The translations under genes and the position numbers were made by a program. The notes under the pieces are model-generated. The model ran no database searches and was not told the origin of the DNA. It saw nothing but the letters and a program-made list of their open reading frames with translations. A stretch of 20,036 nt of DNA from the IMG/VR virus record IMGVR_UViG_3300009182_000388, positions 1 to 20,036 of that record; one strand, 5' to 3'. Below are positions 1,218 through 19,361 of this stretch, one piece after another (the first letter of the stretch is position 1; every line of letters starts with the position of its first letter). Source of the DNA: a virus.

Positions 1218-1233
1218 GGATAAGTAGTAATAG
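1218..1233 (+). promoter_or_regulatory. Repeated intergenic element, copy 1 (GGATAAGTAGTAATAG)
   Basis: This copy shares GGATAAGTAGT exactly with copies at 2585, 4175 and 6784, and differs only in the following WAT triplet. It follows a T6 tract and precedes the foldable non-coding stretch 1238-1347 and the 1397 gene. It does not contain a normal -35/-10 pair at 16-18 spacing. I infer a phage-specific promoter or 5' leader element; the sequence itself shows only position, orientation and conservation. Confidence 0.6.
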
Positions 1234-1237
1234 GACA

Positions 1238-1347
1238 TGCCGTGATGGCACTCCTCGACCCCTTTGCCGTGTAAAGAAACGGCACTGGTTGGTGGTCTAC
1301 CAGCATAGAAAACCACCACCTTTACAACGCCCAAGACAGTAAAGGTG
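1238..1347 (+). ncRNA. Candidate structured RNA or long 5' leader
   Basis: The 200-base gap between genes (1197-1396) holds no good gene. It is rich in inverted repeats: TGCC/GGCA (1238-1241 with 1247-1250); TGCCGT/ACGGCA (1265-1270 with 1279-1284, 8-base loop); TGGTGGT/ACCACCA (1290-1296 with 1312-1318); and a perfect 9-bp pair CACCTTTAC/GTAAAGGTG (1317-1325 with 1339-1347, 13-base loop). The last two share two bases, so they are alternative or must yield at the border. A 9-codon frame (ATG at 1245, stop at 1272-1274) with AGGA at 1232-1235 could be a leader peptide. I see no T-tract after the last stem, so read-through into the 1397 gene is expected. It matches no RNA family I can name. Confidence 0.4.
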
Positions 1348-1396
1348 TATTACCAAATGCGGGCAATCACACACTTAAACACACAGGAGAATTAAC

Positions 1397-1657
1397 ATGA
1401 CTTCACCATACGAATTACGCTTTAATATCTTTAACACCGCTAAAGAGATCTTAGAATCCCAGTACCAAGCCAATTTGGACGCTTGGAAACTGTTAGATAA
1501 GGCATCTAAAGAAGCCGCAGACTTAGCCCCTAAGTTCCCCACTGTCCACGAGATCGTGGAGAAGGCCTTGGAGATCAATAAGTTTGTCAGCGAAACAAAT
1601 CACAACGAACTGGTCAAGGTAGCTAAACGCCTTACCGGCACAACAATAGTATTCTAA
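1397..1657 (+). CDS. Small helical phage protein, unknown function (86 aa)
   Basis: The ATG at 1397 has a strong AGGAG ten bases upstream. The protein begins MTSPYELRFNIFNTAKEILE and continues as an amphipathic helix (QYQANLDAWKLLDKASKEAA), then a segment with PTVHEIVEKALEINKFV and a short C-terminus. The opening pattern, YELR-NI---AKE-LE followed by a Tyr/Trp-containing helix, reminds me of small uncharacterised proteins common in marine and freshwater myoviruses and podoviruses; this is memory of a pattern, not a search result. No enzyme motif or membrane segment is present. It is the first gene after the structured leader and opens the run of small basic proteins leading to the terminase-like gene. 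Confidence 0.75.
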   Translation: MTSPYELRFNIFNTAKEILESQYQANLDAWKLLDKASKEAADLAPKFPTVHEIVEKALEINKFVSETNHNELVKVAKRLTGTTIVF

Positions 1658-1666
1658 GGAAGCATT

Positions 1667-1819
1667 ATGGCAACTAAACCCGGCTTATACGCAAACATCC
1701 ACGCAAAACAAGAACGCATCAAGGCTGGCTCAGGCGAGAAGATGCGCAAGCCGGGCGCTAAAGGCGCCCCAACAGCTAAGCAGTTTAAACAGGCGGCAAA
1801 GACCGCTAAGACAAAATGA
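1667..1819 (+). CDS. Very basic 50-aa protein
   Basis: The start is ATG with AAGGAAGC just upstream, and the stop overlaps the next start (ATGA at 1816-1819). The product is a 50-residue Lys/Ala/Gly-rich protein opening MATKPGLYANIHAKQERI, then GSGEKMRKPGAKGAPTAKQF and a lysine-rich end. Such composition fits nucleic-acid or virion binding, but nothing more specific can be said. The GLYANIHAK-ERI-AGSGE-MRKPG pattern looks like a conserved mini-protein of environmental phages. Tight coupling to the following Cys-containing basic protein suggests that the two act together. The gene is shorter than the size most gene callers report, and is supported by the overlap pattern and composition. Confidence 0.75.
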   Translation: MATKPGLYANIHAKQERIKAGSGEKMRKPGAKGAPTAKQFKQAAKTAKTK

Positions 1820-2124
1820 AAGACTTTAAAACACTTCCTAAGATGGCATCAGGCGGCTCCGTTAAGCATGACAAGCCGATTGCCAAGACCACCACTGGAA
1901 AAGATCGTCACTACCTTTCCACTAAAGAAGGTGCTGGCATGACCGAAGCCGGTCGCAAGGCATATAACGCCAAAAACGGCTCACATCTCAAGGCACCACA
2001 ACCCGAAGGTGGTTCACGCAAGGATTCATTTTGTGCCCGCATGTCAGGCGTAAAAGGCCCGATGAAGGACGAGAACGGTAAACCAACCCGCAAGGCAGCG
2101 GCACTAAAAAGGTGGAAGTGCTAA
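1816..2124 (+). CDS. Basic phage protein of the DUF6321-like type (102 aa)
   Basis: After MKDFKTLPKMASGGSVKHD the protein carries the pattern GMTEAGRKAYN, a short basic linker, RKDSFCARMSGVKGPM, and ends AALKRWKC. The combination L/MT-AGR-AYN, R-(K)-SFCARM-G and a terminal RW-C is the pattern I associate with the uncharacterised phage family annotated DUF6321; that name is from memory. Two cysteines (in SFCARM and at the very C-terminus) are probably conserved, perhaps for metal or disulfide. The N-terminal MASGGSV is one of several A-x-GG-x-V motifs also found in the virion proteins of the minus arm, which hints that this protein is packaged or processed with them. It lies directly before the terminase-like gene (TAATG overlap at 2122-2126). 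Confidence 0.75.
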   Translation: MKDFKTLPKMASGGSVKHDKPIAKTTTGKDRHYLSTKEGAGMTEAGRKAYNAKNGSHLKAPQPEGGSRKDSFCARMSGVKGPMKDENGKPTRKAAALKRWKC

Positions 2125-2519
2125 TGGCAGCTAGATCTAAATTCAAATTTACACCAGACCACGCCAAGATTATTCTTGAGCTGGGTAAGGTAGGCGCGTC
2201 CCAAAAAGCTATGTACGCCGCCCTTGGTATCAGCAAGGACACGGCAGCAAAACTTAAAAAAGATGACCCAGATTTTTATGAGGCAATGTCCATGGCGACC
2301 ACGCACGGCCAAGCCTTTTGGGAAAACATGATGCTTGCAAACATTGACAACAGGGCTTTTAACAGCCGAGTTGCTGAGATTGCCCTTCGTGGGCAGTACC
2401 CCGACGACTACAAAGATCGTCAAGAAATTAAAGCTGAGGTAAAACAAGAACTTAACATTGACTTCCAAGGCGCGGTTAATGACCTCATTGGCAAACTTAA
2501 AGAAGCCGCCCAAGAATAG
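2124..2519 (+). CDS. Putative terminase small subunit / HTH DNA-binding protein (131 aa)
   Basis: I chose ATG at 2124 (TAATG with the upstream stop) over the in-frame GTG at 2112. Residues 1-55 hold a likely helix-turn-helix: a helix with HAKIILELGKVGASQKAMYA, the turn LGIS, then a helix with KDTAAKLKKDDPDFYEAM. The middle (QAFWENMM followed by FNSRVAEIALRGQYPDDYKD) matches the pattern of phage DNA-packaging small subunits, where such a segment precedes a variable acidic/helical oligomerisation tail (here QELNIDFQGAVNDLIGKLKE). Small terminases bind the packaging site and regulate the large subunit. No large terminase is in the window, so the pair is not adjacent, and another HTH regulator remains possible. 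A UUCG terminator follows at once. Confidence 0.6.
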   Translation: MAARSKFKFTPDHAKIILELGKVGASQKAMYAALGISKDTAAKLKKDDPDFYEAMSMATTHGQAFWENMMLANIDNRAFNSRVAEIALRGQYPDDYKDRQEIKAEVKQELNIDFQGAVNDLIGKLKEAAQE

Positions 2520-2539
2520 AAAAAATATAGTTGTAAGTT

Positions 2540-2556
2540 TTTCACATTGTGGTAAA
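2540..2556 (+). promoter_or_regulatory. Imperfect inverted repeat TTTCACATTGTGGTAAA (cassette part A)
   Basis: This 17-mer is repeated with one change (TTTCACATGGTGGTAAA) at 6739-6755, in both cases just ahead of a UUCG terminator and the GGATAAGTAGTTAT element. It has partial dyad symmetry (CACA-T-TGTG core here). Role unknown: operator, terminator-associated RNA signal or recombination footprint are all possible. Confidence 0.5.
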
Positions 2557-2584
2557 AATAAGGCTCTTCGGAGCCTTTATTTTT
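2554..2584 (+). terminator. Rho-independent terminator with UUCG loop
   Basis: AAGGCTC-TTCG-GAGCCTT forms a 7-bp stem with the very stable UUCG tetraloop. Past one bulged T the stem can extend through AAAAAT/ATTTTT, ending in a T-tract. It closes the operon that ends with the terminase-like gene. Confidence 0.85.
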
Positions 2585-2600
2585 GGATAAGTAGTTATAG
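2585..2600 (+). promoter_or_regulatory. Repeated intergenic element, copy 2 (GGATAAGTAGTTATAG)
   Basis: It is directly fused to the T-tract of the terminator and stands 38 bases before the DUF2800 start. It is identical to copies at 4175 and 6784 over 14 bases. An element placed immediately after a terminator and before a new gene is best explained as a promoter or start-of-message signal. Confidence 0.65.
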
Positions 2601-2622
2601 ACAAGAAAAGGAAAACAGACAA

Positions 2623-3753
2623 ATGACAGCACACGCACTTTTAAGCGCATCCAGTAGTAAGCGATGGCTAACATGCACACCCAGTGCCAGACTAGAATCT
2701 ACACTACCTGAGCAAAAGCGCCCCGCTGGCTCGTTTGATTTTTCGCAGGAAGGCACCATGGCTCACAGCCTAGCCGAGGTTAAACTACGACACCACTATG
2801 CGCAAATTGGATATGAAGAATATAAACAAGAAATCGAAAGCATTAAAAATACGCCATTCTACAATGAAGAGTTCGAGGCGTATGTCGACAACTATGTTCT
2901 TTATGTTCGTTCACAAATCGGAGATGGGGATGTTCCGCTATTTGAACAACGCGTGGATTTCTCTGACTGGGTTCCTGACGGCTTTGGTACAGCCGATGTG
3001 GTTATACTTTCTAAGTACTCCATTCGCGTCATCGACCTCAAGTTTGGCAAGGGTGTGCCTGTCTCCGCAATCGACAACACACAGCTACGACTATATGCTC
3101 TTGGTGCTTATTCAAAATTTAAGGAAGAGTATCCAGACATCAAAGAGGTTTCCTACACGATCCACCAGCCTCGCTTGGACAGTATCTCATCTGATGGCAC
3201 TTCAATCGCTAAACTGGTCGACTGGGCGAGTTACTTCGTAAAACCCAAGGCTAAAAAAGCGTGGGCTGGTGCCGGTGAGTTTTTAGCTGGTGATCATTGC
3301 CAGTTCTGCCGTGCCAAGGCACAGTGCCGCGCCCGTGCAGATCTTAACAACCAAATTGCTGCATTAGAGTTTAGACCACCAGCACTTTTATCTGATGAAG
3401 AGTTTGACTTGGTGTTATCAAAGGCGGATTTAGTTAAGACATACATTAACGACGTGCAGTCATTCGCCTTAGATCGTGCGGTAAATAACGATATAATCCC
3501 CGCAGGCTACAAACTTACCTCCACCAAGACACACCGCAAGATTGGTGATCAGGCATTAGCCGCCGTGGTTTTGATGGAAAAAGGTTTTAAGGAAGAAGAG
3601 ATTTATGAACCCAAAAGCCTTAAATCGATCGCACAGCTTGAGAAACTAGGTCAGAAGGGTCAGGTAGCCGCCGCACTTGGTGCGCTTATCCTACGCCCTG
3701 ATGGAGCCCTTAAACTGGTAAAAGACAAGGCTGTTGAGGAGGACTTTAAATGA
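2623..3753 (+). CDS. DUF2800 family PD-(D/E)XK nuclease (376 aa)
   Basis: The frame is open from 2458, but the real start is ATG 2623 with AAGGAAAA upstream. The product then opens MTAHALLSASSSKRWLTCTP, the usual start of DUF2800, and the earlier frame overlaps the terminase-like gene and terminator. DUF2800 proteins are Cas4/RecB-like nucleases of phages and prophages. Visible motifs are EGTMAH (43-48), GTAD with D125, DLK (138-140), Q154 and Y158 in NTQLRLY, which form the nuclease core, and four cysteines C18, C226, C229 and C235 (HCQFC, then C six on) placed to hold an iron-sulfur cluster. Expected role: processing DNA ends in replication or recombination together with the DUF2815 SSB and PolA in this arm. 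Length is normal for the family. Confidence 0.9.
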   Translation: MTAHALLSASSSKRWLTCTPSARLESTLPEQKRPAGSFDFSQEGTMAHSLAEVKLRHHYAQIGYEEYKQEIESIKNTPFYNEEFEAYVDNYVLYVRSQIGDGDVPLFEQRVDFSDWVPDGFGTADVVILSKYSIRVIDLKFGKGVPVSAIDNTQLRLYALGAYSKFKEEYPDIKEVSYTIHQPRLDSISSDGTSIAKLVDWASYFVKPKAKKAWAGAGEFLAGDHCQFCRAKAQCRARADLNNQIAALEFRPPALLSDEEFDLVLSKADLVKTYINDVQSFALDRAVNNDIIPAGYKLTSTKTHRKIGDQALAAVVLMEKGFKEEEIYEPKSLKSIAQLEKLGQKGQVAAALGALILRPDGALKLVKDKAVEEDFK

Positions 3754-3899
3754 ACTCTTGGTTAATGGGTTTTATAGCCGTGGTTTATGCTGTTGTGGCA
3801 ATAAATTTTTTTAGAACTGATCAGACAGGTTTTGGTATTTCGTTTTTAGGTTACGCAATAGGAAACATAGGACTAATACTTGCCGCAATAGGAAAATAA
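3750..3899 (+). CDS. Small two-helix membrane protein (49 aa)
   Basis: The start overlaps the DUF2800 stop (ATGA), with GAGGAGG upstream as a strong ribosome binding site, and the stop is immediately followed by the next ATG. The protein begins MNSWLMGFIAVVYAVVAINF, a clear membrane helix, then a short polar loop (FRTDQTGFG) and a second hydrophobic stretch (ISFLGYAIGNIGLILAAIG) ending in a single Lys. This hairpin topology is shared by small holins and antiholins but also by many phage membrane peptides of unknown role, so I do not name it. It has no cysteines and no charged residues inside the helices. Confidence 0.75.
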   Translation: MNSWLMGFIAVVYAVVAINFFRTDQTGFGISFLGYAIGNIGLILAAIGK

Positions 3900-4136
3900 A
3901 TGGACGAAAGAATCCAAGTACACATAAACCAAAGTGAAGTAGATGAGTTTTGTTTAGATTTTTATGACATGCCAAAAGATAGTATTAATACTATCCGAGA
4001 AAGCATATACGAAACAATAGAGACGGCAACTGAAGAGCCCGAGTTGACCGAGCATCCTTTATTCATGGAAGATTTAACAAGAGCATTTACAATGCGTCAG
4101 GCCTTGATTCAATTGAACAAATTGTATGACGCATAA
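3900..4136 (+). CDS. Hypothetical acidic protein (78 aa)
   Basis: The ATG directly follows the upstream stop (TAAATG), with AGGA about ten bases before. The product is acidic (MDERIQVHINQSEVDEF, then IYETIETATEEPELTEHPLF) and ends in a helix (FTMRQALIQLNKLYDA). It has no membrane segment, no cysteine cluster and no known enzyme motif. I do not recognise the family. Its acidity and place between a nuclease and an SSB could suit a protein that binds basic partners or mimics DNA, but the sequence does not establish this. It is the last gene before the long leader of the DUF2815 gene. Confidence 0.7.
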   Translation: MDERIQVHINQSEVDEFCLDFYDMPKDSINTIRESIYETIETATEEPELTEHPLFMEDLTRAFTMRQALIQLNKLYDA

Positions 4137-4174
4137 ATATATTACATTATGAAATTAAAAAGTAGTAAAAGTTT

Positions 4175-4191
4175 GGATAAGTAGTTATGTA
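4175..4191 (+). promoter_or_regulatory. Repeated intergenic element, copy 3 (GGATAAGTAGTTATGTA)
   Basis: The 17 bases are identical to those at 6784-6800. It stands 78 bases before the DUF2815 start. No clear hairpin precedes it, but the AT-rich sequence upstream (TTACATTATGAAATTAAA at 4142-4159) loosely resembles the TTTCACAT-GTGGTAAA part of the full cassettes, as if a terminator stem had been lost. The 60 bases after it form a long leader without an open frame. Confidence 0.65.
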
Positions 4192-4252
4192 AGAAAGGTA
4201 GACGACTAGCACCTCAGAAGTTTAGTCAATTCAAAGCAAACAAGGAGCCAAG

Positions 4253-4768
4253 ATGGCACAAGCAATTAAAGTAGTTACAGACAAAGTTCGTTTTTCATAC
4301 GCCAACGTATTCGTACCTAAGGCACAGATGGAAGGTGGCACTCCAAAGTATTCAGTATCAATCATTATTCCAAAGAGCGATACTGAGACAGTAGCAAAAA
4401 TCAATAAAGCAATCGAGCAGGTTAAAGCTGACAACCAAGACATCTTTAAGGGTGTTGCGGCTAAGTTAATTAAAGGTGGTTTGCGTGATGGCGATGAAGA
4501 AAAACCTAACGATCCAGCATACGCTAATTCGTACTTCATTAACGCCAACTCATCACAAAAGCCCGGCTTGGTAGACGCTGATCGTCAACCTATTATTGAC
4601 GCAAGTGAAATCTATTCCGGCTGTTATGGCCGTGCATCAGTAAGCTTCTTCCCATACAACGTATCAGGCTCACGTGGCGTTGGCTGTGGTTTAAACGGCT
4701 TACAGAAGTTAGAAGATGGTGAGGCACTCGGTGGCGTTTCTAATGCCGCTGCGGACTTCGCAATTTAA
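4253..4768 (+). CDS. DUF2815 single-stranded DNA-binding protein (171 aa)
   Basis: The start ATG follows CAAGGAGCCAAG, a strong ribosome binding site context shared with the gene at 6817. The sequence (VVTDKVRFSYANVFVPK, a Gly-rich turn, PKYSVSIIIPKSD, then FFPYNVSGSRGVGCGLNGLQ) is typical of DUF2815, the phage OB-fold SSB family represented by Enc34 SSB. Such proteins coat single strands during replication and recombination and are often encoded near DUF2800 and a family A polymerase, as here. Length is normal. A strong terminator follows directly, so this gene is probably a separate, strongly expressed unit between the element at 4175 and the hairpin at 4792. Confidence 0.9.
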   Translation: MAQAIKVVTDKVRFSYANVFVPKAQMEGGTPKYSVSIIIPKSDTETVAKINKAIEQVKADNQDIFKGVAAKLIKGGLRDGDEEKPNDPAYANSYFINANSSQKPGLVDADRQPIIDASEIYSGCYGRASVSFFPYNVSGSRGVGCGLNGLQKLEDGEALGGVSNAAADFAI

Positions 4769-4791
4769 TAGTAGTACCCAGTAGATGGGCC

Positions 4792-4822
4792 AACCCAGTG
4801 CAGAAACTGCACTGGGTTTTTT
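4792..4822 (+). terminator. Rho-independent terminator, 12-bp perfect stem
   Basis: AACCCAGTGCAG pairs perfectly with CTGCACTGGGTT around an AAA loop, with T residues after the stem. A smaller CCCA/TGGG hairpin (4777-4780 with 4786-4789) lies just upstream. No copy of the GGATAAGTAG element follows this terminator, unlike the UUCG-loop ones, so RNR may be read from its own promoter or by read-through. Confidence 0.9.
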
Positions 4823-4857
4823 GCCCTTAAGACCAATACAATAACAAGAAAGACACC

Positions 4858-6732
4858 ATGGATCAGTACCAAGAATATATCGCCGCCAGCCGTTATGCCC
4901 GTTTCCAAGACGATAAGGGTCGTCGTGAAAACTGGGGTGAGACCGTAGACCGGTATGTAGAATACATGTTTAGCCGTACACCAGCCATTACTAACAACAC
5001 CGAATTAAAAACAGAACTTCGTAGCGCCATTTTTAACCTTGAACTAATGCCGTCCATGCGTGCCATGATGACAGCAGGAAAGAGTGCCGACCGTGACAAT
5101 ACTTGCGTCTATAACTGCAGCTATCTCCCAGTGGATGACCCCAAGTCGTTTGACGAAAGCATGTTTATTTTGTTGTGTGGAACGGGAGTTGGCTTTTCAG
5201 TCGAGTCGAAGTATATTAGTAACCTGCCCGAAGTGCCGGAACAGTTATTTGAAAGCAGCCACACCATTGCAGTGCATGATAGCAAAGAAGGCTGGGCTAA
5301 GTCGCTGCGATTGCTCCTCGCTCATTTGTGGGCTGGAGAAATCCCAAAATGGGATGTCTCCAATATTCGACCTGCGGGAGCACGACTCAAAACTTTTGGA
5401 GGGCGAGCTTCAGGACCCGAACCATTAGTTGACCTGTTTAAGTTCGCTGTTAACATGTTCAAACATGCACAAGGGCGCCGCCTTAATTCACTTGAGTGCC
5501 ACGACCTAATGTGCAAAATTGGTGAGGTTGTAGTTGTTGGCGGCGTGCGCCGCTCTGCTATGATTTCTTTATCAGATTTAGATGATGAAAGGATTCGACA
5601 TGCAAAAGCTGGACCATGGTGGGAAACCGCTCCACATCGGGCTCTCGCAAATAATAGCGCTGTCTATAATGACACACCAACTGTTGGGAAATTTATGGAG
5701 GAGTGGCTTTCTCTGTATAATTCTCATTCTGGTGAACGTGGTATATTCAATCGTGAAGCTGCTAAGAACACAGTTGCTAAGTATGGTCATCGCGATCCTA
5801 ATTTTGAGTTTGGGACTAATCCTTGCTCAGAAATTATCCTCCGACCTTACCAATTTTGTAACCTCTCTGAAGTGGTGGTGAGACATGACGACGACAAACA
5901 AACTTTGCTGCGCAAAGTGCGGCTTGCGGCTGCCCTTGGAACAATCCAGTCAACCTTTACCCGGTTCCCCTATCTGCGCAAGGTGTGGCAGAGAAATACT
6001 GAGGCAGAACGGCTTTTGGGTGTTTCCCTCACCGGCATTTATGACAACCCCCTTTTGGTCAACCAAGGAGAACAACTAAATGAGTTACTTACCGAGCTTC
6101 GAGAGGAAGCTAGAAGAACCAACAAAGAATTTGCAGAGCTGCTTGGAATACCTGAAAGTGCTGCAATTACTTGCGTTAAGCCCAGTGGAACCGTCAGCCA
6201 ACTCGTTGATAGTGCTTCTGGAATCCACCCTAGACACTCTAAATTCTACATACGAAGAGTTAGAGGAGATAAGAAAGACCCTCTCACCCAATTCTTAATT
6301 CAACAAGGAATACCAAATGAAGCGTGCGTTTATAAACCTGATCAAACAATTGTTTTTAGTTTTCCAATCAAGGCCCCAGCAGGCATCACAAGAGACCAAG
6401 TCACCCCGATTGACCATCTTGGACTCTGGCTTACTTATCAGCGGCACTGGTGCGAGCACAAACCCTCTGTCACCATTTCCGTCGAAGAAAAAGACTGGCC
6501 AAGCGTCGGTGCGTGGACGTGGGAAAACTTCTCAGAAATCAGCGGCGTCAGCTACCTCCCGTACGACGGCGGAACCTACCGCCAAGCCCCGTACGAAGAG
6601 TGTAGCGAAGAAGACTACCAAGCCCTCAAAGCCCAAGTCCCCCAAATCAACTGGGAAGACTTCGAAGAAACCACGGACAACGTCGAAGGCGCCCAACAAC
6701 TAGCCTGCAGTGCCGGGTCTTGCGAAATTTAA
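4858..6732 (+). CDS. nrdJ: Adenosylcobalamin-dependent (class II) ribonucleoside-triphosphate reductase (624 aa)
   Basis: This enzyme reduces ribonucleotides to deoxyribonucleotides using vitamin B12, supplying phage replication. Motifs visible: NTCVYNCSY (Cys83/Cys87, one of them an active-site cysteine), LCGTGVGFSVE (107-116), GTNPCSEI with the thiyl-radical Cys323 and Glu325, the partner Cys334 eleven residues on (QFCNLSEV), KPSGTVSQL (441-449), and a C-terminal tail CSAGSC (617, 622) for re-reduction. The 11-residue spacing of the Cys pair and the C-x4-C tail fit the monomeric Lactobacillus leichmannii type, in which the equivalents are 408, 419 and 731/736. At 624 residues it is clearly shorter than that 739-residue enzyme, chiefly before the radical cysteine. 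Codon use shifts along the gene (see findings). It has its own terminator downstream. Confidence 0.93.
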   Translation: MDQYQEYIAASRYARFQDDKGRRENWGETVDRYVEYMFSRTPAITNNTELKTELRSAIFNLELMPSMRAMMTAGKSADRDNTCVYNCSYLPVDDPKSFDESMFILLCGTGVGFSVESKYISNLPEVPEQLFESSHTIAVHDSKEGWAKSLRLLLAHLWAGEIPKWDVSNIRPAGARLKTFGGRASGPEPLVDLFKFAVNMFKHAQGRRLNSLECHDLMCKIGEVVVVGGVRRSAMISLSDLDDERIRHAKAGPWWETAPHRALANNSAVYNDTPTVGKFMEEWLSLYNSHSGERGIFNREAAKNTVAKYGHRDPNFEFGTNPCSEIILRPYQFCNLSEVVVRHDDDKQTLLRKVRLAAALGTIQSTFTRFPYLRKVWQRNTEAERLLGVSLTGIYDNPLLVNQGEQLNELLTELREEARRTNKEFAELLGIPESAAITCVKPSGTVSQLVDSASGIHPRHSKFYIRRVRGDKKDPLTQFLIQQGIPNEACVYKPDQTIVFSFPIKAPAGITRDQVTPIDHLGLWLTYQRHWCEHKPSVTISVEEKDWPSVGAWTWENFSEISGVSYLPYDGGTYRQAPYEECSEEDYQALKAQVPQINWEDFEETTDNVEGAQQLACSAGSCEI

Positions 6733-6738
6733 AAACTA

Positions 6739-6755
6739 TTTCACATGGTGGTAAA
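6739..6755 (+). promoter_or_regulatory. Imperfect inverted repeat TTTCACATGGTGGTAAA (cassette part A, second copy)
   Basis: It differs by one base from 2540-2556 and sits in the same order relative to terminator and element. Because the base pairs of the two terminators differ while this block is kept, it is likely under its own selection. Confidence 0.5.
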
Positions 6756-6758
6756 TTT

Positions 6759-6783
6759 GGCCCCTCTTCGGAGGGGCTTTTTT
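6759..6783 (+). terminator. Rho-independent terminator with UUCG loop
   Basis: GCCCCTC-TTCG-GAGGGGC forms a 7-bp GC-rich stem (6760-6777), extended by a G-T pair, and is followed by T6. It ends the RNR message. The loop is the same as at 2567-2570 but the stem pairs are changed on both sides. Confidence 0.9.
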
Positions 6784-6800
6784 GGATAAGTAGTTATGTA
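6784..6800 (+). promoter_or_regulatory. Repeated intergenic element, copy 4 (GGATAAGTAGTTATGTA)
   Basis: It is fused to the T-tract of the RNR terminator and lies 33 bases before the ATG at 6817. It is identical over 17 bases to copy 3. It would start the message for the ten-gene train up to 8986. Confidence 0.65.
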
Positions 6801-6816
6801 AAAACAAGGAGCCAAT

Positions 6817-7035
6817 ATGACCACAGCAGAACAAGCCTACAATCACTGGAAAAAAGCCATGAAGATGGATTTGCGAGTCTATACAGATCAGCAGCTCTTT
6901 GAATTGGGCTTTAATGCCGCTAAGTCCATTATGAACGAAATGGAAAAGGTAGTTTCTGAAATGGAACGCGAAAACAAAAAACTGTCGGCTGAGATCAAAA
7001 AGCTTCGTAAGGCAAATAAAAATGCGCCCGAATAA
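6817..7035 (+). CDS. Hypothetical coiled-coil protein (72 aa)
   Basis: The ATG follows ACAAGGAGCCAAT, a strong ribosome binding site nearly identical to that of the DUF2815 gene. The N-terminal third (TTAEQAYNHWKKAMKMDLRV) is mixed; from about residue 38 on the protein is one long charged helix (MNEMEKVVSEMERENKKLSA) with heptad-like spacing, ending in a Lys/Arg-rich tail, so a dimeric coiled coil is likely. No family recognised. It is the first gene of the small-gene train and overlaps the next by 14 bases, an unusually long overlap for this arm. Confidence 0.75.
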   Translation: MTTAEQAYNHWKKAMKMDLRVYTDQQLFELGFNAAKSIMNEMEKVVSEMERENKKLSAEIKKLRKANKNAPE

Positions 7036-7276
7036 ATTCCAATTTCGCAAGACAGCAGCTCGTAATGGGTGGACAAAGATCTTTGGTGGCATCGGCCGAC
7101 GTAGAAGTATTAAAGACTTCTTTAATACCAAAACACCAGTTAAAAAACGCTTTAATATGCAGATGGTAAGGCGCTCACACCAAGGACACCGTAACAGAAT
7201 TTTTGGTAGTCTAAATGCCCTAAAGATCCGTCTACAATTTGGCCGCAGGCCAACAATATCAGATTTTAGGAGGTAG
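7022..7276 (+). CDS. Hypothetical strongly basic protein (84 aa)
   Basis: The ATG at 7022 lies inside the end of the preceding gene; AAGG about ten bases before could serve as ribosome binding site. The product is very rich in Arg and Lys with aromatic residues (MRPNKFQFRKTAARNGWTKI, then FNMQMVRRSHQGHRNRIFG and RLQFGRRPTISDFRR). Such composition fits DNA or RNA binding, but there is no named motif. A long reverse frame covers the same bases, so coding is less certain than for its neighbours. In favour: it fills a gap that would otherwise be 240 bases in an arm with almost no gaps, and the next gene starts one base after its end with a strong AGGAGG inside it. Confidence 0.55.
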   Translation: MRPNKFQFRKTAARNGWTKIFGGIGRRRSIKDFFNTKTPVKKRFNMQMVRRSHQGHRNRIFGSLNALKIRLQFGRRPTISDFRR

Positions 7277-7277
7277 T

Positions 7278-7355
7278 ATGATTTACTTTGCAATCTATTT
7301 AGTACTTCTCGTTGTTGCGTTACTATTTAATTATGGAGCACATCTTGATGACTAA
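7278..7355 (+). CDS. Tiny single-pass membrane peptide (25 aa)
   Basis: ATG at 7278 has a perfect AGGAGG seven bases upstream, one of the best ribosome binding sites of the window. The peptide starts MIYFAIYLVLLVVALLFNYG and ends AHLDD, so it is essentially one membrane helix with a short acidic tail. Its stop lies inside the start of the next gene (overlap 7348-7355). At 25 residues it falls below normal gene-calling limits, but the ribosome binding site and clean hydrophobic helix make it believable. Function unknown; small membrane peptides near a spanin-like gene can be lysis or host-takeover factors. Confidence 0.6.
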   Translation: MIYFAIYLVLLVVALLFNYGAHLDD

Positions 7356-7482
7356 CGAAAAACAAAAGCCAATTACTGAGCAGTACCGTAACAACTACGA
7401 TAAGATTTTTGACAAACCAAACCCACTTGCCGAGAAGCTAATTAAGCAGATTGAGGAAAACATAAAGGCCAATTCAAAATGA
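7348..7482 (+). CDS. Hypothetical small protein (44 aa)
   Basis: Start ATG at 7348 with GGAG about nine bases upstream; it overlaps the preceding tiny gene by eight bases and the next by four (ATGA at 7479-7482). The product is polar and helical (MTNEKQKPITEQYRNNYDKI, then DKPNPLAEKLIKQIEENIKA) with no membrane segment. I recognise no family. The chain of overlaps on both sides supports that it is translated. Confidence 0.65.
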   Translation: MTNEKQKPITEQYRNNYDKIFDKPNPLAEKLIKQIEENIKANSK

Positions 7483-7754
7483 CATATGAATACTTTATTT
7501 TGTTTTTCATTGGCTTTATTGTGGGTGCGTTACTTAACCGCAGCAAAGAAAGCCGTGAACAAGAGCGCATATACGAAGATCGGTATCGTGACTACGAGGC
7601 CAATGTGCAGTATTACAAACGCTTAACCCGCAATTTGGTAGAAGAAAACAACAACCTCAAACAATGGCAAACCCGCCAGCTTGATGTTATTGATTCTCTA
7701 AACACACAGATCAGACACCTAGAGTCTCAAGTATACGGAGGCAGCACAAAATGA
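7479..7754 (+). CDS. Membrane-anchored coiled-coil protein, spanin-like topology (91 aa)
   Basis: ATGA overlap with the upstream gene. An N-terminal membrane helix (residues about 5-19, YFILFFIGFIVGALL) is followed by a basic junction (NRSKESREQER) and then a long helical, Tyr/Gln/Asn-rich coiled coil (DYEANVQYYKRLTRNLVEEN, then IDSLNTQIRHLESQ). This N-anchored periplasmic coiled-coil layout is that of inner-membrane spanins (Rz type), which join inner and outer membranes at lysis. No outer-membrane lipoprotein partner or endolysin is visible nearby, so the spanin idea is only inference from topology. The frame just past its stop could add a Cys-rich tail if ribosomes shifted by +1 (see findings). 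Confidence 0.7.
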   Translation: MTYEYFILFFIGFIVGALLNRSKESREQERIYEDRYRDYEANVQYYKRLTRNLVEENNNLKQWQTRQLDVIDSLNTQIRHLESQVYGGSTK

Positions 7755-7783
7755 GGATGTTAAATGTCTGATTTGTGAGAAAA

Positions 7784-8299: not shown

Positions 8300-8301
8300 A
8301 A

Positions 8302-9027: not shown

Positions 9028-10941
9028 ATGATTTACAGCATTGACTTTGAAACCCGCAGCGCCATCGACTTAGCCGACCAGGGGCTAGACATCTACGCCA
9101 ACGACCCCAGTACAGAGGTGTTGTGTATTGCGTTTGGTACCACTCTCCAAAATGTGGATGTACTATCACCTAAAAATTGGGTTACTCAAGCAACACTTTT
9201 GGAGCACGTCCGTCGAGGTGGCAAAATTGCAGCCTGGAACGCCATGTTTGAGTACGCCATCTGGAACTGCGTCTGTGTGCCTAAGTACAAATGGCCACCA
9301 CTAAAACTAGAGCAGTGCATTGACTCCATGGCCATAGCAGCTGCCAATAACATCCCCCAGTCCCTCGAAGAAGCCGCTTTGTTCTTAAATGCCAGCCATA
9401 AGAAAGACACCACTGGCAGAAAGCTAATCCAAAAGCTGTGTAAGCCCAAGAAAGATGGCACCTTTAACAACGACCCGCAGGCGATGGCAGAGCTGTTTTC
9501 ATACTGCCAACAGGACGTCCGTGCTGAGATGGCGATTGTGGCCAATTTAAGGCCCCTCTCAGACGAGGAACAGGCAATCTGGACCCTCACCCAGCGGATC
9601 AATTTGAGAGGCGTACCGGTCGATCCACAAGAGCTCCACAACGCTGTCGTAGCTGTGGCAAGGGCACAAGATGCCATCGACAACGAATGCGTCGCCTTGA
9701 CGGGTTTTAGAGCGTCTGAGAGGGATAAATTGCTAGGGTGGTTAAATGCCCAAGGAATGGATATGTCCAACATGACCGCTGAGATGATATCAGTTATGTT
9801 GCAACGCACCAATTTAAAGCCTAATGTAAGGAGGGCGTTAGAATTACGCCAAGAAGGAAGCCAAACTAGCGTGGCTAAGTACGCTAAGATGATGGAGATA
9901 CAACGTGAAGGACGGATTAGGAATACACTGGTATATCATGGCGCTTCCACTGGCCGCTGGGCGAGCCGCGGTGGGCTTAATTTACAGAATATTGCTCGCC
10001 CCACACTTGGCGATGAAGAAATTGGACAGGCAATACCAAGAGTATTTAGTGAGGGAGTTGGGACGATGCAACAACTATCGTCCCTCGTCCGTAGCGCTAT
10101 ACGAAGCCCTGCAGGCAAAACCTTCGTTGACGTGGATTTTAGCTCAATTGAAAACCGAGTTGGTGTCTGGTTGGCTGGGCAAACAGACAAAGTAGAACTA
10201 TTTAGAAAAGGATTAGATGAGTACAAGACGTTTGCGTCAGAAGCGCTTTATCGTATCGCTTATAACGACGTTACTAAGGATCAGCGTCAAGTCGCGAAGT
10301 CAGCGGTTCTAGGCTGCCTCTTTGGTCAAGGTGCCAAGGGTCTGGTAAAGTACTCTGAGGGGATGGGGGTAAAGATGAGCGAGCAGCAGGCCCAACAAGC
10401 CGTGAATGCTTATCGGGCATCTTACCATCAGGTAAAGAGCTGCTGGGGTGAGATGGAGTCTGCAGCCATGTCAGCCATCTTAGAGCCTGGCACTGCGTTT
10501 GCGGCGGGCAAGTGCGCGTTTAAGGTGCAGAAAGACGTACTGTGGATGCGCCTACCAAGTGGGCGGCTTATCTGTTGGCATAATCCCAAGGTCGAGGAGC
10601 AACTGACTCCATGGGGCGTTAAGAAGTTGGGCGTCACCGTCCGTAGCCAAAACACCTTTACGCGCCAGTGGACTCGAAATAACTTGATTGGTAGTTCGAT
10701 CTTCCAAAGTGCTGTTCAGGCAACTGCTAGGGATATGCTCGCCGAAAGTCTCTTGAGGCTGGATAACGAAGGATACGAAGTGGTCAATTGTGTTCACGAT
10801 GAGGTACTCCTATTATGTAATGAAGAGGAGGCCGAAGCCGTCTTAGATCGTGTTATTGGTATTATGACAACACCGCCTAAGTGGGCTACCAACTTTCCAA
10901 TTGCTGCGGAAGGCTGGATCTCAAAACGCTATCGTAAGTAA
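9028..10941 (+). CDS. polA: Family A DNA polymerase with 3'-5' exonuclease (637 aa)
   Basis: Start ATG with AAGGAG upstream. The N-terminal proofreading domain shows Exo I DFET (D6, E8), Exo II WNAMFEY (N71, E75; Glu in place of the usual Asp, common in phage forms) and Exo III Y159-x3-D163. The polymerase domain shows GASTGRWAS (305-313), motif A DVDFSSIE (D370, E375), motif B R420-x3-K424 with LGCLFGQG, and motif C VHDE (589-592). It lacks a 5' nuclease domain, as usual in phages. Aligning motif B with E. coli Pol I (K758, F762, Y766) gives Leu428 at position 762 and Phe432 at 766. It is the replicative polymerase. It is the last plus-strand gene and abuts the convergent minus arm with no spacer; helicase and primase are not in the window. 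Confidence 0.95.
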   Translation: MIYSIDFETRSAIDLADQGLDIYANDPSTEVLCIAFGTTLQNVDVLSPKNWVTQATLLEHVRRGGKIAAWNAMFEYAIWNCVCVPKYKWPPLKLEQCIDSMAIAAANNIPQSLEEAALFLNASHKKDTTGRKLIQKLCKPKKDGTFNNDPQAMAELFSYCQQDVRAEMAIVANLRPLSDEEQAIWTLTQRINLRGVPVDPQELHNAVVAVARAQDAIDNECVALTGFRASERDKLLGWLNAQGMDMSNMTAEMISVMLQRTNLKPNVRRALELRQEGSQTSVAKYAKMMEIQREGRIRNTLVYHGASTGRWASRGGLNLQNIARPTLGDEEIGQAIPRVFSEGVGTMQQLSSLVRSAIRSPAGKTFVDVDFSSIENRVGVWLAGQTDKVELFRKGLDEYKTFASEALYRIAYNDVTKDQRQVAKSAVLGCLFGQGAKGLVKYSEGMGVKMSEQQAQQAVNAYRASYHQVKSCWGEMESAAMSAILEPGTAFAAGKCAFKVQKDVLWMRLPSGRLICWHNPKVEEQLTPWGVKKLGVTVRSQNTFTRQWTRNNLIGSSIFQSAVQATARDMLAESLLRLDNEGYEVVNCVHDEVLLLCNEEEAEAVLDRVIGIMTTPPKWATNFPIAAEGWISKRYRK

Positions 10942-14348: not shown

Positions 14349-16330
14349 TATTTCTTTCTCTCTGGGTAAAGGTCAAGTAAAGCTGCTCCAGGGTGAGCTG
14401 GCTTTTCATTTTTACCCTCTTGGCCGTTAGCCTTTACAAGTTTTTCTACTTGTTTAGCATGGTCTGCTCGAATTGCCTTGTACTGTGCTGTCGACTCAAA
14501 ATCCTGAAATTGTCCGTTTCTGTTTTGGGCTTTCCAGTCTTCGTAAGCATTGCCCATTTTCTCATCGTAGTCTGCTCTTGTCTTATACCACTGGGCAAAT
14601 TTCTTAATAGTTTCAGGACTATTTTTTGTACTTCCAGTCATTTTAGCAACAAGCTCACGCTCAGCATCAGATACTGCGCCTTGACCCTTAAGAACAACTT
14701 TAGCAGCATTAAGTTGAAGTTCAGCAAATATTCTTGCCGCTTCTTCTGCAGCCCTGAGATCTTCTTTCTTAATTCCTGGTCTTAATCTAAGCGCAGCCTC
14801 TTCCATATTAGATAGTTTTGCAGTGCCACTGCCAGGTACTGTTACGCCACCTTCAATAGCCTTAACGGCGGCTGCAAGAAGGCCAGTTTCTTGCAACACA
14901 CCAAAAGCTTTTGGATTACTTGTTGAAAGATCAATAAGCCTTTGAGCATTTGCACGATTGGTTCCAACATTATCGCGGGCTTCACGAATGGCATCACTTC
15001 TTACAGCTGCGGTTTTACCTGTAGCTTCAAGTTCCGCGGCTCTGCCTTTTTCCTCTGTTTTAATACTTTCTTCAGCTTTTAGCTTTTGGTTAGCTAAAGC
15101 TAAATCATACTCATCGCGCGTTGTTGGCTTAGAGCCATCTGGCATGAGAGGACCCACATACCCAGCCGCTTTAGCTGCGGGTTGTTTAGGTGCAGGCTCT
15201 AAACCAGTTGCGCCAGATGTAGCAATGGGTTTACCACCTAAAATGCCTGTAGCAATTTGAGTTGCTTTTTCTGCACCACCATTAGCTGCAGCAGCTTCTG
15301 AACTTATATTGCCAGTTTTAATGTAGTTAGCTGCACCAGTGGGTCCTAAAAAGTGAGCTAAATCTAAATTCTGTGCGCTTGGTTCTACACCAAGTTTAGA
15401 AAGTTGGTTTTGAGCCAATCCACGATATGTGTTAAAGGCTTCAGTTTGCTCATCTTTATTGAGTGAAGTGATCGGACGATCTTTGAACCGTGGATTGGCA
15501 GCTTGTACATCCTTGTAAGCTGCATCAGTAATTCCATAGGTTCCGTATGCAGTACCTTTAGTGAGATCATGATAACCTATATCCCTACCACCAGATTCAC
15601 GGGCGGCAACTCTTAAAGCAGCGTCATCAGAAACAACAGGCTGCTGAGAAACACCGCGGTATAACTCTGGTTTTTTTGTTAGTATTTTCTCAGCATCTGC
15701 CTGAGTCATTTCTTCCACTTTGTTTGTTAAGGGATTAAATACCTTAACAATCGTAGCCATCTGTGGAGAGAATTCTTTTTTAGTACTTTCAGTAATCCGG
15801 CCTTTACGCCACTCATCAAGGATAGCCAATCTATCGGAGTCTGTTCTAGCAGCTTGCATGCGAGCCTGAACATCAGCTGGAATAGCTGCAGCACCGCCCG
15901 CACCACCAACACCACCAGCGCCACCTGTTAAGGCAGCAAGACGAGCTGCGTCATTGGCAGCAGAAGATTGTGCAGCCTTGTATGATGCTAATTGTTGCTG
16001 CATGTTAAAAAGGTCTTTACCTTCTTCATTTTGCTGTTTATTTATAGCGGCCAGTGTGGCAGCGGGTCCTTCAACACCACCTGAACCCCAAGCAGATGCG
16101 CGAGCTAAACTATCTTGAAAACTTTTCCATGGGCTTGATTTTTCAGCAATCAATCTTTCCATGTTGGCTAATAGATCTTTAGTTGCTGAAGGATCAGCAA
16201 CAATTTCTTTTGCTGAAGGAACCAAATTACCTTTAGGCCCAATTTTTACAGATAAACCCCCTGTAGGAGTTTCCGTAGTCTGTGTGTCTTCAACCGGAAT
16301 GGCATCCAAGCCTGATGTTGTGTTCGCCAT
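14348..16330 (-). CDS. Virion protein with lysozyme-like transglycosylase domain (660 aa)
   Basis: ATG 16330 follows AAGAGAATAAAATT on the minus strand. Residues 1-130 are polar and helical; 136-149 is a Gly/Ala linker. Residues 235-340 form a lysozyme-like domain: AARESGG with probable catalytic Glu245, AYGTYGIT (261-268), a helix with TEAFNTYRGLAQNQLSKLG, and LDLAHFLGPTGAANYI (322-337). This matches soluble lytic transglycosylases of tail or ejection proteins, which open peptidoglycan as DNA enters. The C-terminal half (about 400-660) is Ala/Glu/Lys-rich helix and may form a long fibre or trans-envelope tube. It lies among other internal virion candidates in one operon. T7 gp16-like function is the closest analogy, though the protein is much shorter. 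Confidence 0.75.
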   Translation of the reverse strand: MANTTSGLDAIPVEDTQTTETPTGGLSVKIGPKGNLVPSAKEIVADPSATKDLLANMERLIAEKSSPWKSFQDSLARASAWGSGGVEGPAATLAAINKQQNEEGKDLFNMQQQLASYKAAQSSAANDAARLAALTGGAGGVGGAGGAAAIPADVQARMQAARTDSDRLAILDEWRKGRITESTKKEFSPQMATIVKVFNPLTNKVEEMTQADAEKILTKKPELYRGVSQQPVVSDDAALRVAARESGGRDIGYHDLTKGTAYGTYGITDAAYKDVQAANPRFKDRPITSLNKDEQTEAFNTYRGLAQNQLSKLGVEPSAQNLDLAHFLGPTGAANYIKTGNISSEAAAANGGAEKATQIATGILGGKPIATSGATGLEPAPKQPAAKAAGYVGPLMPDGSKPTTRDEYDLALANQKLKAEESIKTEEKGRAAELEATGKTAAVRSDAIREARDNVGTNRANAQRLIDLSTSNPKAFGVLQETGLLAAAVKAIEGGVTVPGSGTAKLSNMEEAALRLRPGIKKEDLRAAEEAARIFAELQLNAAKVVLKGQGAVSDAERELVAKMTGSTKNSPETIKKFAQWYKTRADYDEKMGNAYEDWKAQNRNGQFQDFESTAQYKAIRADHAKQVEKLVKANGQEGKNEKPAHPGAALLDLYPERKK

Positions 16331-16345
16331 AATTTTATTCTCTTA

Positions 16346-17266
16346 TTAAATATCTTCGCCAGCGATTTGTGGAGCCACATAATTAGGGTCAGTATTTTCA
16401 CCAAGCCCCACATCTCTGTTATCCATTGCGGGGTTACTGTTTGAAATATAAGTTCCAGAATTTCCACCACTAAACAAATTACCAATAGCTTTGCCTGCAC
16501 CACCAACCAAACCACTTAATCCACCCTTAACTCCCAATGAACCCAATAAAGAATTAACAGCACCTGTTCCACCAAGTAAGTTAGACAATGCGCCAATTTG
16601 ATTTAATGGCGATACCTGAGTACTTTGGGTAACTGATTCTGGAGCCTTAATACCTGCTAGAATTGTTGCCAATGTGGCGGCTTGTTTCGTTGGGTCCATC
16701 TGTTGCAACTGACCCAAAGCTGTTTCTTGAGTAATGTTTTGATTAGCCAATGAGCCTGCTTGACCAGCAGCACTCACACCAGTTGCTTGATTTTTTAATG
16801 CTGCATCCATCTGTTGTGAGAATAGATTTGCTTGCGCATCACCTAAAGCTTTTTCAACGGCAGTCTGTCCGCGTAAACTACCAAAGTTACCCGATGCAAT
16901 AGCACCAGCTTCAGGAGCTGCCTTAATATTTGGCATAAGCTGGTTAAGCTGTTGGTTTTGCGCTTGAAACAAACCGCCAAGCGCCGTGCTAGTATTTGGA
17001 GTAACTTGACCAGTTGCACTAACGTTCCATGGATTAGCTGCCCCAGTAGCAATAGATTGAGCGGTATTACCAGCTTGTACAAAAGGGTTGTTGGCACCAC
17101 CAAGCTGAGTAATAGCATTGCCGGCAAGCGTATTTTGTAGCGTAGGCATTGCGTTGACGCCAGCCGTTGCCTTAGACACTGCATCTTGTTGTGCGCTATC
17201 ATACCACGCTGGTAGCGTTGTCTGTTTGGTTGATGTGTTTGCAATAAGACTGCTTAATCCGGCCAT
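16346..17266 (-). CDS. Gly/Ala/Asn-rich virion (DNA-ejection-like) protein (306 aa)
   Basis: The start lies six bases past the upstream stop, with AAAGG upstream as ribosome binding site. After a short N-terminus (MAGLSSLIANTSTKQTTLPA) the protein is rich in Ala, Gln, Asn and Gly, with repeated stretches such as NPFVQAGNTAQSIATGAANP and FQAQNQQLNQLMPNIKAAPE, a GNFGSLRGQTAVEKALGDA segment, and a C-terminal hydrophobic Gly-rich part (LSGLVGGAGKAIGNLFSGG, about 240-265). Such proteins in podovirus-like phages are internal or ejected proteins. No enzyme motif is seen. The composition and its place between the 629-aa and transglycosylase proteins support a particle role; the exact part is unknown. 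Confidence 0.65.
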   Translation of the reverse strand: MAGLSSLIANTSTKQTTLPAWYDSAQQDAVSKATAGVNAMPTLQNTLAGNAITQLGGANNPFVQAGNTAQSIATGAANPWNVSATGQVTPNTSTALGGLFQAQNQQLNQLMPNIKAAPEAGAIASGNFGSLRGQTAVEKALGDAQANLFSQQMDAALKNQATGVSAAGQAGSLANQNITQETALGQLQQMDPTKQAATLATILAGIKAPESVTQSTQVSPLNQIGALSNLLGGTGAVNSLLGSLGVKGGLSGLVGGAGKAIGNLFSGGNSGTYISNSNPAMDNRDVGLGENTDPNYVAPQIAGEDI

Positions 17267-17272
17267 AATATG

Positions 17273-19162
17273 TTATACCTTTGTTTTTCTTTTTGCATCA
17301 GTCAAATAAGCTAGTGGGCCTTTTGAATCTGGTGGCAATTTATTTGTGTCATGCTTTTGTTTGTGAGCACGAATTGTTTCTAAAAACTTATTTAAAACTT
17401 TTGAACCGCTGTCGTTACTACCATTACCAAGAGAAGCAACAACGTCAGCTGGTATCACAAACTCACCGTTTGCTAACATTGCTGGTACGCTATCGCTTGT
17501 TCCATCTCCATCACCTTGAACATACGTGTTCTTTAATGAATTTAATCCACCCTCGGAATAAAACTGCGGGTTATGATCTTCTACTTCACCACCTTCAGCG
17601 TAACCACGATGTTGCTGAAGTTTTTGCAACAATTTTAAATATTCAGGATTTGAAAGTTCTTTCAATCCGGATGTATCTGCTTTTAATATATCGCTTTTTA
17701 AATATGGATCGTTTGTTTGGTCTGTGGGTGTTGTATCTGTAGATGTCGTATCCGATGTTTGACTGTCTCCGGCTGTGGATCCAGCAATTGCAGCACCACC
17801 CAAGCCAAGTAAACCGCCCGTAGTGGAACCAGAACCACTTAAAAGTGAGTTAAGTCCCATCTTTGCGGCGTTACTACCTAATTTAGAAGCTATGTTTTTT
17901 CCAATATTAGAGCTTGTTTCTCCAGCTCCAGGTCCAAATGCTTGAGCCAATTCTTCTGGAGTCATGCTTTTTAATTCAGACATTGTTTGAATTGGGTCTG
18001 GTGTTGAGTTAGCATAGCTGGCCATGTCAGCTTCAGTTATATTAGGAGCTCCACTAAAAGCACTTGAAATCCCACCAGCAACACCGCCGCCAACTCCACC
18101 ATATGCAGAACCTTTAAGTGCTCCGCCAAGAATATCTCCATTGTGCGCAGCAGCATTGATAGCACCACTACCACCACCTAATATAGCGCCAGTAGCAGCA
18201 CCGCCCAATAGCGCACTACCACCTAACCCTTCGGCTAGAAAAGGTGCTAGCTCAGGTGCTATAGCCATTGCAGCAATAGTAGTAATTGCAGGTATTGCGT
18301 CTCCAAACATCCCACCACTATCTAAGCCAGCAATACGCTGTCTATTGGCGCTACTTGCTTGTGAGGCAGACTGGCTATATAAATCATTGATTTGCTGAGG
18401 AGTCATTCCCTCTTTAATAGCGTCTGGAATCAAACTTTGTATTGTTTGTTGGTGGCCAGTAGCCCTATCACTTCTATTTTGCGCAAGATCCCATCCAGCC
18501 GCTTGGCTTTCAGCCTTAATTTTATTTTTGTAGTATGTTTGCGGATCTAATGTCTTTAACTGTTCAAGAGCATTTTGTTGTACTGAAGAAGGTGCGTTGG
18601 TATACAAAGTCCCATAAATAGTGTTCTCTAAGGCATCACCAATTTGGCTGTAATACCCATGGGGGTCTGTTGCTTTTTGAGTGTACAACTGTTCAGCTTT
18701 TGTTGGATCAGTATTTAATCCAGCAGCTTGTAGAAGTGGGTCGTTTAGTGCAGCTCCACCAGCTAACGCCTTAATACTGGCGGGGTCAATTCCACTTTGC
18801 TCTCCACCTGAATCTGTAAGGTATGAATATGTGTAAGCATTTCCAGTGCGAGGATCTACATAATAGCTACCGCCGCCACTATCAGGATTATTTGGATCTG
18901 TCTGATAGGTACGTTGCTCCCAAGTATTGGGGTCAGAAACAGTCTGGTCAGTATTAAACCCCGCCAAATTAGCTGTTTTACCCGCATTTGAAGCAAAATA
19001 GTTTAATGCTCCCTCTGGGTGCAAGTTTTGAAACTCTTGACTATTTTGTAATGCAGATGCTACAACAGAAGGATCTTGATTACTCCATGTGGATAAACCA
19101 CTTGGATCGACATCACGACCAAGGTACTGTTGGTACAGGGAGTTTAATCCGGACTGATCCAT
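17273..19162 (-). CDS. Large virion protein: DUF4214-like N-terminus, membrane-like middle, conserved C-terminal domain (629 aa)
   Basis: Residues 4-50 (LNSLYQQYLGRDVDPSGLST, then SQEFQNLHP) follow the YQ-YLGR-pDp-GL-W pattern of DUF4214, best known from secreted and surface proteins. Residues 286-370 are hydrophobic and Gly/Ala-rich (AIPAITTIAAMAIAPELAPF and following), as is 440-465; these could enter the host membrane. YAEGGEV (521-527) and SEGG (536-539) lead into a C-terminal domain, GDGTSDSVPAMLANGEFVIP then ADVVASLGNGSNDSGS and a basic helix, which I recognise as a recurring C-terminal module of phage virion proteins. Start ATG 19162 has no clear ribosome binding site and probably depends on coupling with the 50-aa gene five bases upstream. 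Confidence 0.7.
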   Translation of the reverse strand: MDQSGLNSLYQQYLGRDVDPSGLSTWSNQDPSVVASALQNSQEFQNLHPEGALNYFASNAGKTANLAGFNTDQTVSDPNTWEQRTYQTDPNNPDSGGGSYYVDPRTGNAYTYSYLTDSGGEQSGIDPASIKALAGGAALNDPLLQAAGLNTDPTKAEQLYTQKATDPHGYYSQIGDALENTIYGTLYTNAPSSVQQNALEQLKTLDPQTYYKNKIKAESQAAGWDLAQNRSDRATGHQQTIQSLIPDAIKEGMTPQQINDLYSQSASQASSANRQRIAGLDSGGMFGDAIPAITTIAAMAIAPELAPFLAEGLGGSALLGGAATGAILGGGSGAINAAAHNGDILGGALKGSAYGGVGGGVAGGISSAFSGAPNITEADMASYANSTPDPIQTMSELKSMTPEELAQAFGPGAGETSSNIGKNIASKLGSNAAKMGLNSLLSGSGSTTGGLLGLGGAAIAGSTAGDSQTSDTTSTDTTPTDQTNDPYLKSDILKADTSGLKELSNPEYLKLLQKLQQHRGYAEGGEVEDHNPQFYSEGGLNSLKNTYVQGDGDGTSDSVPAMLANGEFVIPADVVASLGNGSNDSGSKVLNKFLETIRAHKQKHDTNKLPPDSKGPLAYLTDAKRKTKV

Positions 19163-19167
19163 TAAAA

Positions 19168-19320
19168 TTATTCAGTAATGTTTTTTGCTTTTGCAGCCAA
19201 AGACTCTTCAACAGCTTTTTCAAATACTGGATCGATAGCTTGAGTATTTTTGTGCTTAGCCAATATAGCTTGAGCAACGGCTTGATCGTTAAGATACTTT
19301 AATGTTTGTTGTCCGTGCAT
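19168..19320 (-). CDS. Small helical protein (50 aa)
   Basis: Minus-strand ATG at 19318-19320 with AAGGAAAC before it, a good ribosome binding site. The product (MHGQQTLKYLNDQAVAQAIL, then KNTQAIDPVFEKAVEESLAA and a short end) is helical with no membrane segment. It is too short for most gene callers and I do not recognise it. It is the first gene after the minus-strand copy of the repeated element, five bases ahead of the 629-aa protein, to which it is probably coupled in translation. Confidence 0.7.
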   Translation of the reverse strand: MHGQQTLKYLNDQAVAQAILAKHKNTQAIDPVFEKAVEESLAAKAKNITE

Positions 19321-19345
19321 TTTGTTTCCTTTAGTTAAATTACTT

Positions 19346-19361
19346 CTATATCTACATATCC
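19346..19361 (-). promoter_or_regulatory. Repeated intergenic element, minus-strand copy (GGATATGTAGATATAG)
   Basis: Read on the minus strand, a T6 tract (19362-19367) is followed by a 16-mer with two changes from copy 2. TAGGGCGAAA lies at 19376-19385, 24 bases before the element, exactly as in copy 1. It sits in the only sizeable gap (19321-19389) of the minus arm and points with transcription toward the large virion genes. Confidence 0.6.

Follow-up and report, generated by a model that had tools for sequence, protein, structure and literature searches.

The sigma factor gp36 of phage phiEco32 lacks region 4 and serves middle and late genes from promoters with a single −10-like element (tAATGTAtA), with transcription starting 6–8 bp downstream (PMC8948821). 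In gp47 of Salmonella phage 7-11, region 4 is part of the same polypeptide, late promoters are bipartite (GTAAtg-(16)-aCTA) and there is no middle class (PMC8948821). The T4 late system (gp55, gp33 and gp45) combines a sigma-like protein for the −10 element with a separate 112-aa sigma4 mimic, an arrangement termed split sigma; in sequence, gp33 does not discernibly resemble sigma (PMC2988020). Sigma4 and sigma2 are also located on separate polypeptides in the Bacillus subtilis SigO–RsoA system (PMC8103513, PMC10028694).

The window analysed here, meaning the whole stretch of 20,036 nt, contains a repeated short element that very probably marks where transcription starts in a freshwater phage family and is read by a phage-encoded sigma factor; no transcript or protein data exist for it. 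According to our reading, to which we assign a probability of about 0.83 in the absence of transcript 5′ ends and binding data, the copies are −10 cores for the phage sigma on host core RNA polymerase, and a class of them has an upstream GGGCG box, which, most tentatively, a region-4-like protein may read. No description of promoters or transcription control of this phage group was found in the open-access literature, and absence there is not proof.

The shared block of the plus-strand element, TTTGGATAAGTAGT, occurs in four exact copies at 1218, 2585, 4175 and 6784, and a minus-strand variant, GGATATGTAGATATAG, occurs once at 19361–19346. A sequence-only reading of the window had claimed these five copies; all positions and strands were correct, and the block is indeed present at all four plus sites, but it is longer than that reading gave, and the division of the copies into two promoter classes was overlooked. 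Against the four copies of TTTGGATAAGTAGT, the most frequent 14-mer in any of 200 second-order Markov surrogates of the window had at most two. The only further GGATATGT in the window, at 9759 within the polymerase gene, has no element context and looks like a chance match. The T-rich tract described ahead of the element is real, and at 2585 and 6784, two of the four plus copies, it forms the T-tail of an intrinsic terminator (hairpins at 2560–2577 and 6759–6778). The statement that the element has no sigma70-like −35/−10 pair holds for host-type hexamers, but not entirely, since a −35 box accompanies two of the five copies: those at 1218 and 19361 have TAGGGCGAA, with GGGCG exactly 19 nt 5′ of the hexamer, and the other three are without it. 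The features of the window are as follows.

1196–1200, plus strand: GGGCG box at the −35 position of the 1218 promoter, 19 nt before the hexamer, a spacing that is exact in the window.
1215–1231, plus strand: putative promoter core TTTGGATAAGTAGTAAT, hexamer ATAAGT at 1220–1225, inferred start about 1232, box class.
2541–2555, plus strand: palindrome-like box TTCACATTGTGGTAA, with TTCACA 40 nt before the hexamer.
2560–2584, plus strand: intrinsic terminator, T-tail abutting the promoter core.
2582–2598, plus strand: putative promoter core TTTGGATAAGTAGTTAT, hexamer at 2587–2592, inferred start about 2599, no box.
4172–4188, plus strand: putative promoter core, hexamer at 4177–4182, inferred start about 4189, no box, 5′ of the single-stranded DNA-binding protein (SSB) gene.
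6740–6754, plus strand: palindrome-like box TTCACATGGTGGTAA, with TTCACA 40 nt before the hexamer.
6759–6783, plus strand: intrinsic terminator, T-tail abutting the promoter core.
6781–6797, plus strand: putative promoter core, hexamer at 6786–6791, inferred start about 6798, no box, 5′ of a train of small genes.
19379–19383, minus strand: GGGCG box at the −35 position of the minus-strand promoter.
19346–19364, minus strand: putative promoter core TTTGGATATGTAGATATAG, hexamer ATATGT at 19359–19354, inferred start about 19347, box class.

The putative promoter at 1218 lies upstream of a unit at 1397–2519 whose last gene is the terminase small subunit, that at 2585 upstream of a DUF2800/PD-(D/E)XK nuclease gene, and the minus-strand one upstream of virion genes starting at 19320. 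Positions 4858–6732 encode a ribonucleotide reductase of 624 aa, of the B12-dependent type by Pfam.

Relatives were collected by a polymerase search that gave 80 contigs with DNA polymerases 65–75% identical; the polymerase of the best deposited phage record is only 36% identical. The window word, GGATAAGTAG or GGATATGTAG, is absent from all 80 related contigs. Each well-covered related genome has its own repeated word (GCATTAGT, GCATTATT, GCATTAAT, GTATTATT, GCGTATTAGT or GCATAAGT) in about 9–14 copies at the same sites as in the window, and these lineage words substitute for one another at orthologous nuclease, SSB and virion sites. Conservation at the same sites in relatives, on which the sequence-only reading had staked its proposal, thus extends to site and layout and not to the letters. 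The word closest to that of the window is GCATAAGTAG, found in contigs such as L012 and L013, and the element type of the window itself recurs in two more contigs, L212 and L217. A search of viral contigs for the exact window word gave six unrelated single matches, about the chance number. Copies inside genes or against transcription would have refuted the proposal, and no such refutation was obtained: 97 of 118 copies lie between genes or at their edges, point with transcription and are followed by the expected discriminator. Some true copies fall ‘inside genes’ by crude ORF calls, and these were judged on context alone. Among orthologous SSB, polymerase and region-4 sites, roughly one in two had no recognizable element. 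At the SSB site of L022, L025, L013, L051 and others, a host-like TGTTATACT or GGTATACT replaces the phage word. Other dispersed sequences also occur in these genomes, namely GTTTAAAC palindromes at about 9–12 places each in G005 and G019, and the short words CTGGTTACAG (G010) and GGTATCTCTG (G001) at 11–21 places.

With the hexamer as anchor, we aligned 125 copies, drawn from the window, the contigs L212 and L217 and 11 relatives. T is present at 84–94% in the three bases preceding the G, and six bases past the hexamer T is found at 80%, followed by A at 86%. Across lineages the hexamer is ATAAGT, ATTAGT, ATTATT or ATTAAT. An ATG stands exactly 6 nt past the hexamer in 20 of the 125 copies, and any other distance below 17 nt occurs in at most two. 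The ATG of these 20 copies falls exactly at the inferred +1 and thereby defines the likely start site. The layout of T-tract, G-N, hexamer, 6 nt and start fits a putative −10 promoter element. Copies of the replication class have this single conserved −10-like element without a −35, and their start is inferred from the ATG at 6 nt. Leaderless messages are likely where the ATG is at the inferred start (for example, G003 8466-, G017 61135- and L212 101+). In some replication promoters a TTTCACATTGTGAAA-like palindrome places its TTCACA about 30 or 40 nt before the hexamer. Such ATTTCACATTGTGAAAT-like palindromes occur in the window at 2541–2555 and 6740–6754 and also in G001, G003, G005, G006, G016, G018 and G020; the two spacings differ by about one helical turn, and in some genomes the palindrome also occurs elsewhere.

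A sigma factor encoded elsewhere in the phage was among the options of the sequence-only reading, and it found support in a sigma gene that is present in all 11 relatives examined and on the neighbouring contig L217. The protein has about 172–190 aa, with Pfam matches to regions 2 and 3 and a weak one to region 1.2; no Sigma70_r4 match was found by Pfam, and the protein ends after region 3. A profile of 20 members matches E. coli RpoD 344–509 at about 8e-30. The AlphaFold model has a mean pLDDT of 79.9, with no confidently folded domain past region 3. By homology of regions 1.2, 2 and 3 to RpoD, the protein is a predicted member of the sigma-70 family, and its activity in initiation is inferred. 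Positions 7539–7661 of L217 are 100% identical to window positions 1–123, and L217 continues the first reading frame of the window; it neighbours the window, stems from the same phage or one nearly identical to it, and adds 7.5 kb to the left. L217 carries a sigma gene at 1237–1806, and GGATAAGT occurs on it three further times, in one case together with the GGGCG box. Assigning this sigma, which stands on a long branch of the tree, to the window's phage requires that the 123-nt overlap reflect one genome or two nearly identical ones.

Besides the start-site geometry of the element, the association of element type with the sigma gene supports this option. On the sigma tree, element type requires 7 changes with a minimum of 6; on the polymerase tree, 16. 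Moreover, GCGTATTAGT needs 8 changes and is scattered on the polymerase tree, and forms one group on the sigma tree. Hence, element type appears to track the sigma tree better than the polymerase tree, as far as trees that overlap only in part in their loci and differ in method can be compared; in addition, the two ATAAGT types were merged on the polymerase tree. Among sigma residues that vary with element type, the highest values were scattered without concentration in region 2.4, an analysis confounded by phylogeny. In 66 of 69 cases no element lies 5′ of the sigma gene, which suggests, by inference, that its early expression is driven by the host. Sigma relatives (49–51%) are found on L222 and L223, contigs binned as betaproteobacterial genomes, and this binning is a weak hint of a betaproteobacterial host group.

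Not all copies consist of the core alone. In the 125-copy alignment 56 copies bear the box, and in 55 of them GGGCG precedes the hexamer by exactly 19 nt; among 349 distinct candidate elements at all loci the spacing is 19 nt in 102 of the 105 cases with GGGCG within 60 nt. In the GCGTATTAGT type the G-C is shifted by two bases, yet the distance from GGGCG to hexamer is unchanged. The box separates genes by function. Of the elements ahead of primase, nuclease, SSB, polymerase or region-4-like genes, 167 are without box and one has it, besides one nuclease-site element that has the box with one mismatch; of those ahead of the 1397 unit, hg (window 19320-) or the virion/tail gene that follows, 33 have it and one is without. 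By genome arm, the box is present in 36/51 virion-arm versus 15/67 replication-arm copies (Fisher p 2e-7), and the replication-arm copies with box mostly belong to the 1397-type unit. Two classes of putative promoter are thereby established at the level of sequence: core plus GGGCG for packaging and virion genes, and core without box for replication genes.

A candidate reader of the box is a family of proteins of about 100 aa with a helical C-terminus, present in 11/11 relatives. Ten of 26 members match Sigma70_r4_2 (best 0.0016), and one scored match reached 13.7 bits, below the curated cut-off of 25.7; the member of the window's phage has no Pfam match. Ten of 26 also match the phage sigma family phrog_1740 (best 9e-5). 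The helical part of the model has pLDDT >90 and all top five Foldseek matches are sigma region-4 domains, but at E 0.5–0.8, and a PDB profile search with the family matched nothing meaningful. Elements ahead of the gene are 22 without box versus one with box. With a sub-threshold profile and poor Foldseek values, the assignment to sigma region 4 is weak, suggestive but not proof. That this protein reads the GGGCG box is the most tentative part of our reading; there are no binding data, and another activator could read the box. Indeed, it remains quite possible that the element is a core for the phage sigma as we propose, while an unrelated late activator, MotA-like or other, binds GGGCG and the ~100-aa protein is employed otherwise. 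In favour of such an activator are the weak scores above and the presence of further sites, the TTCACA palindrome among them, ahead of some copies. However, the rigid 19-nt spacing better suits a −35 reader bound in the holoenzyme, the phage sigma has no region 4 of its own, and sigma-type matches for the ~100-aa protein came independently from two libraries and were also the best ones in Foldseek.

Much less probable is that the element is an extended −10 of host sigma70 whose lineage-specific letters reflect shared ancestry only. The TG-N ahead of the hexamer in most relatives looks alike, and the TGTTATACT-like sequence at the SSB site of some lineages is compatible with host use. However, ATAAGT, ATTAGT, ATTATT and ATTAAT are not TATAAT-like, the element copies in the window do not meet the host promoter criterion TTGACA-N16-18-TATAAT, and host sigma70-like promoters are not in excess in the window (34 versus 30.1 expected). 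Moreover, one lineage word is used across the whole genome, and this is not followed by the DNA polymerase tree.

T7-type promoters carry TATAGG, and the consensus GATATAGG at the inferred start, ending in ATATAGG, resembles it; the letters also vary by lineage, as a promoter of a single-subunit phage RNA polymerase might. This option of the sequence-only reading has nevertheless become very improbable. No RNA_pol (PF00940) match was found in the records of 28 relatives (the window itself is a fragment), and none in six relatives of which three have terminal repeats. The first control genomes also gave no match, so the T7 record was taken as control and was recovered at 1e-109. In addition, the sigma gene of every relative examined and the fixed position of a −35 box argue against a T7-type polymerase. 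The other option, a 5′ leader or RNA-processing signal for stability or translation, would agree with non-coding copies that are oriented with transcription and in some cases follow terminators, but it is equally hard to sustain because in many copies only 6 nt separate the end of the element from an ATG (this excludes it for 20/125), the fixed-spacing box lies further upstream and Rfam gave no match.

In the mechanism that we propose, host core RNA polymerase loaded with the phage sigma (regions 1.2-2-3, no region 4) would use each copy as a −10, the core consisting of T-tract, G-N, lineage hexamer (ATAAGT here), a 6-nt discriminator with T at −1, and a starting A or G. Replication-type promoters would need the core alone, accompanied in some cases by a TTTCACATTGTGAAA-like site located 30 or 40 nt upstream; virion and packaging promoters would need the core and GGGCG at −35, exactly 19 nt before the hexamer. 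Host sigma70 would first direct synthesis of the phage sigma, and the −10-only replication promoters would then fire and yield the region-4-like protein, which together with the phage sigma may fire the GGGCG promoters of virion and packaging genes. Binding of the element by sigma, the start sites, the time order of these steps and the box reader are all inferred. The letters themselves establish how the element is laid out, that the box stands at a fixed spacing, that the two promoter classes precede different groups of genes, that a sigma gene is present and that element type is associated with it. For the stronger proposition, that a split sigma acts as a timer in which sigma2-3 alone serves replication promoters until a separate DNA-reading sigma4 opens the GGGCG promoters, with words and sigma co-diversified into at least seven types, we consider the evidence to be evenly balanced.

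These results offer a testable promoter reading for a large uncultured group of freshwater phages. The −10 words, of which there are at least seven, are each paired with a sigma of their own and provide a natural series for studying joint change of sigma and promoter. If the region-4-like protein does read GGGCG, a split sigma would switch between gene classes.

Among known systems, phiEco32 gp36 is similar in being a region-4-less phage sigma with −10-only promoters, which are restricted to the replication class here; homology was not compared directly. Its consensus tAATGTAtA is not met, and here virion and packaging promoters have a GGGCG −35 box and there is a separate region-4-like protein. 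Phage 7-11 gp47 is similarly a phage sigma with its own bipartite promoters, but the consensus differs and region 4 is not separate there. SPO1 gp34/gp33 also pair a 197-aa sigma with a 101-aa accessory protein, but the SPO1 sigma itself has region 2 and a weak region-4 match, and no homology to SPO1 gp33, gp34 or gp28 was found for either phage protein. SigO–RsoA is cellular and requires both parts; in our proposal, sigma2-3 needs no partner at replication promoters. The T4 late system shares the combination of a −10 sigma with a separate sigma4-type protein, but is activated by the sliding clamp. To our knowledge, T4 late promoters have no −35 box, in contrast to the GGGCG at fixed spacing upstream of virion and packaging cores here. 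Thus, phage sigmas with −10-only promoters are already known from phiEco32, and a region 4 that is detached as a separate protein and serves as a late switch would be new.
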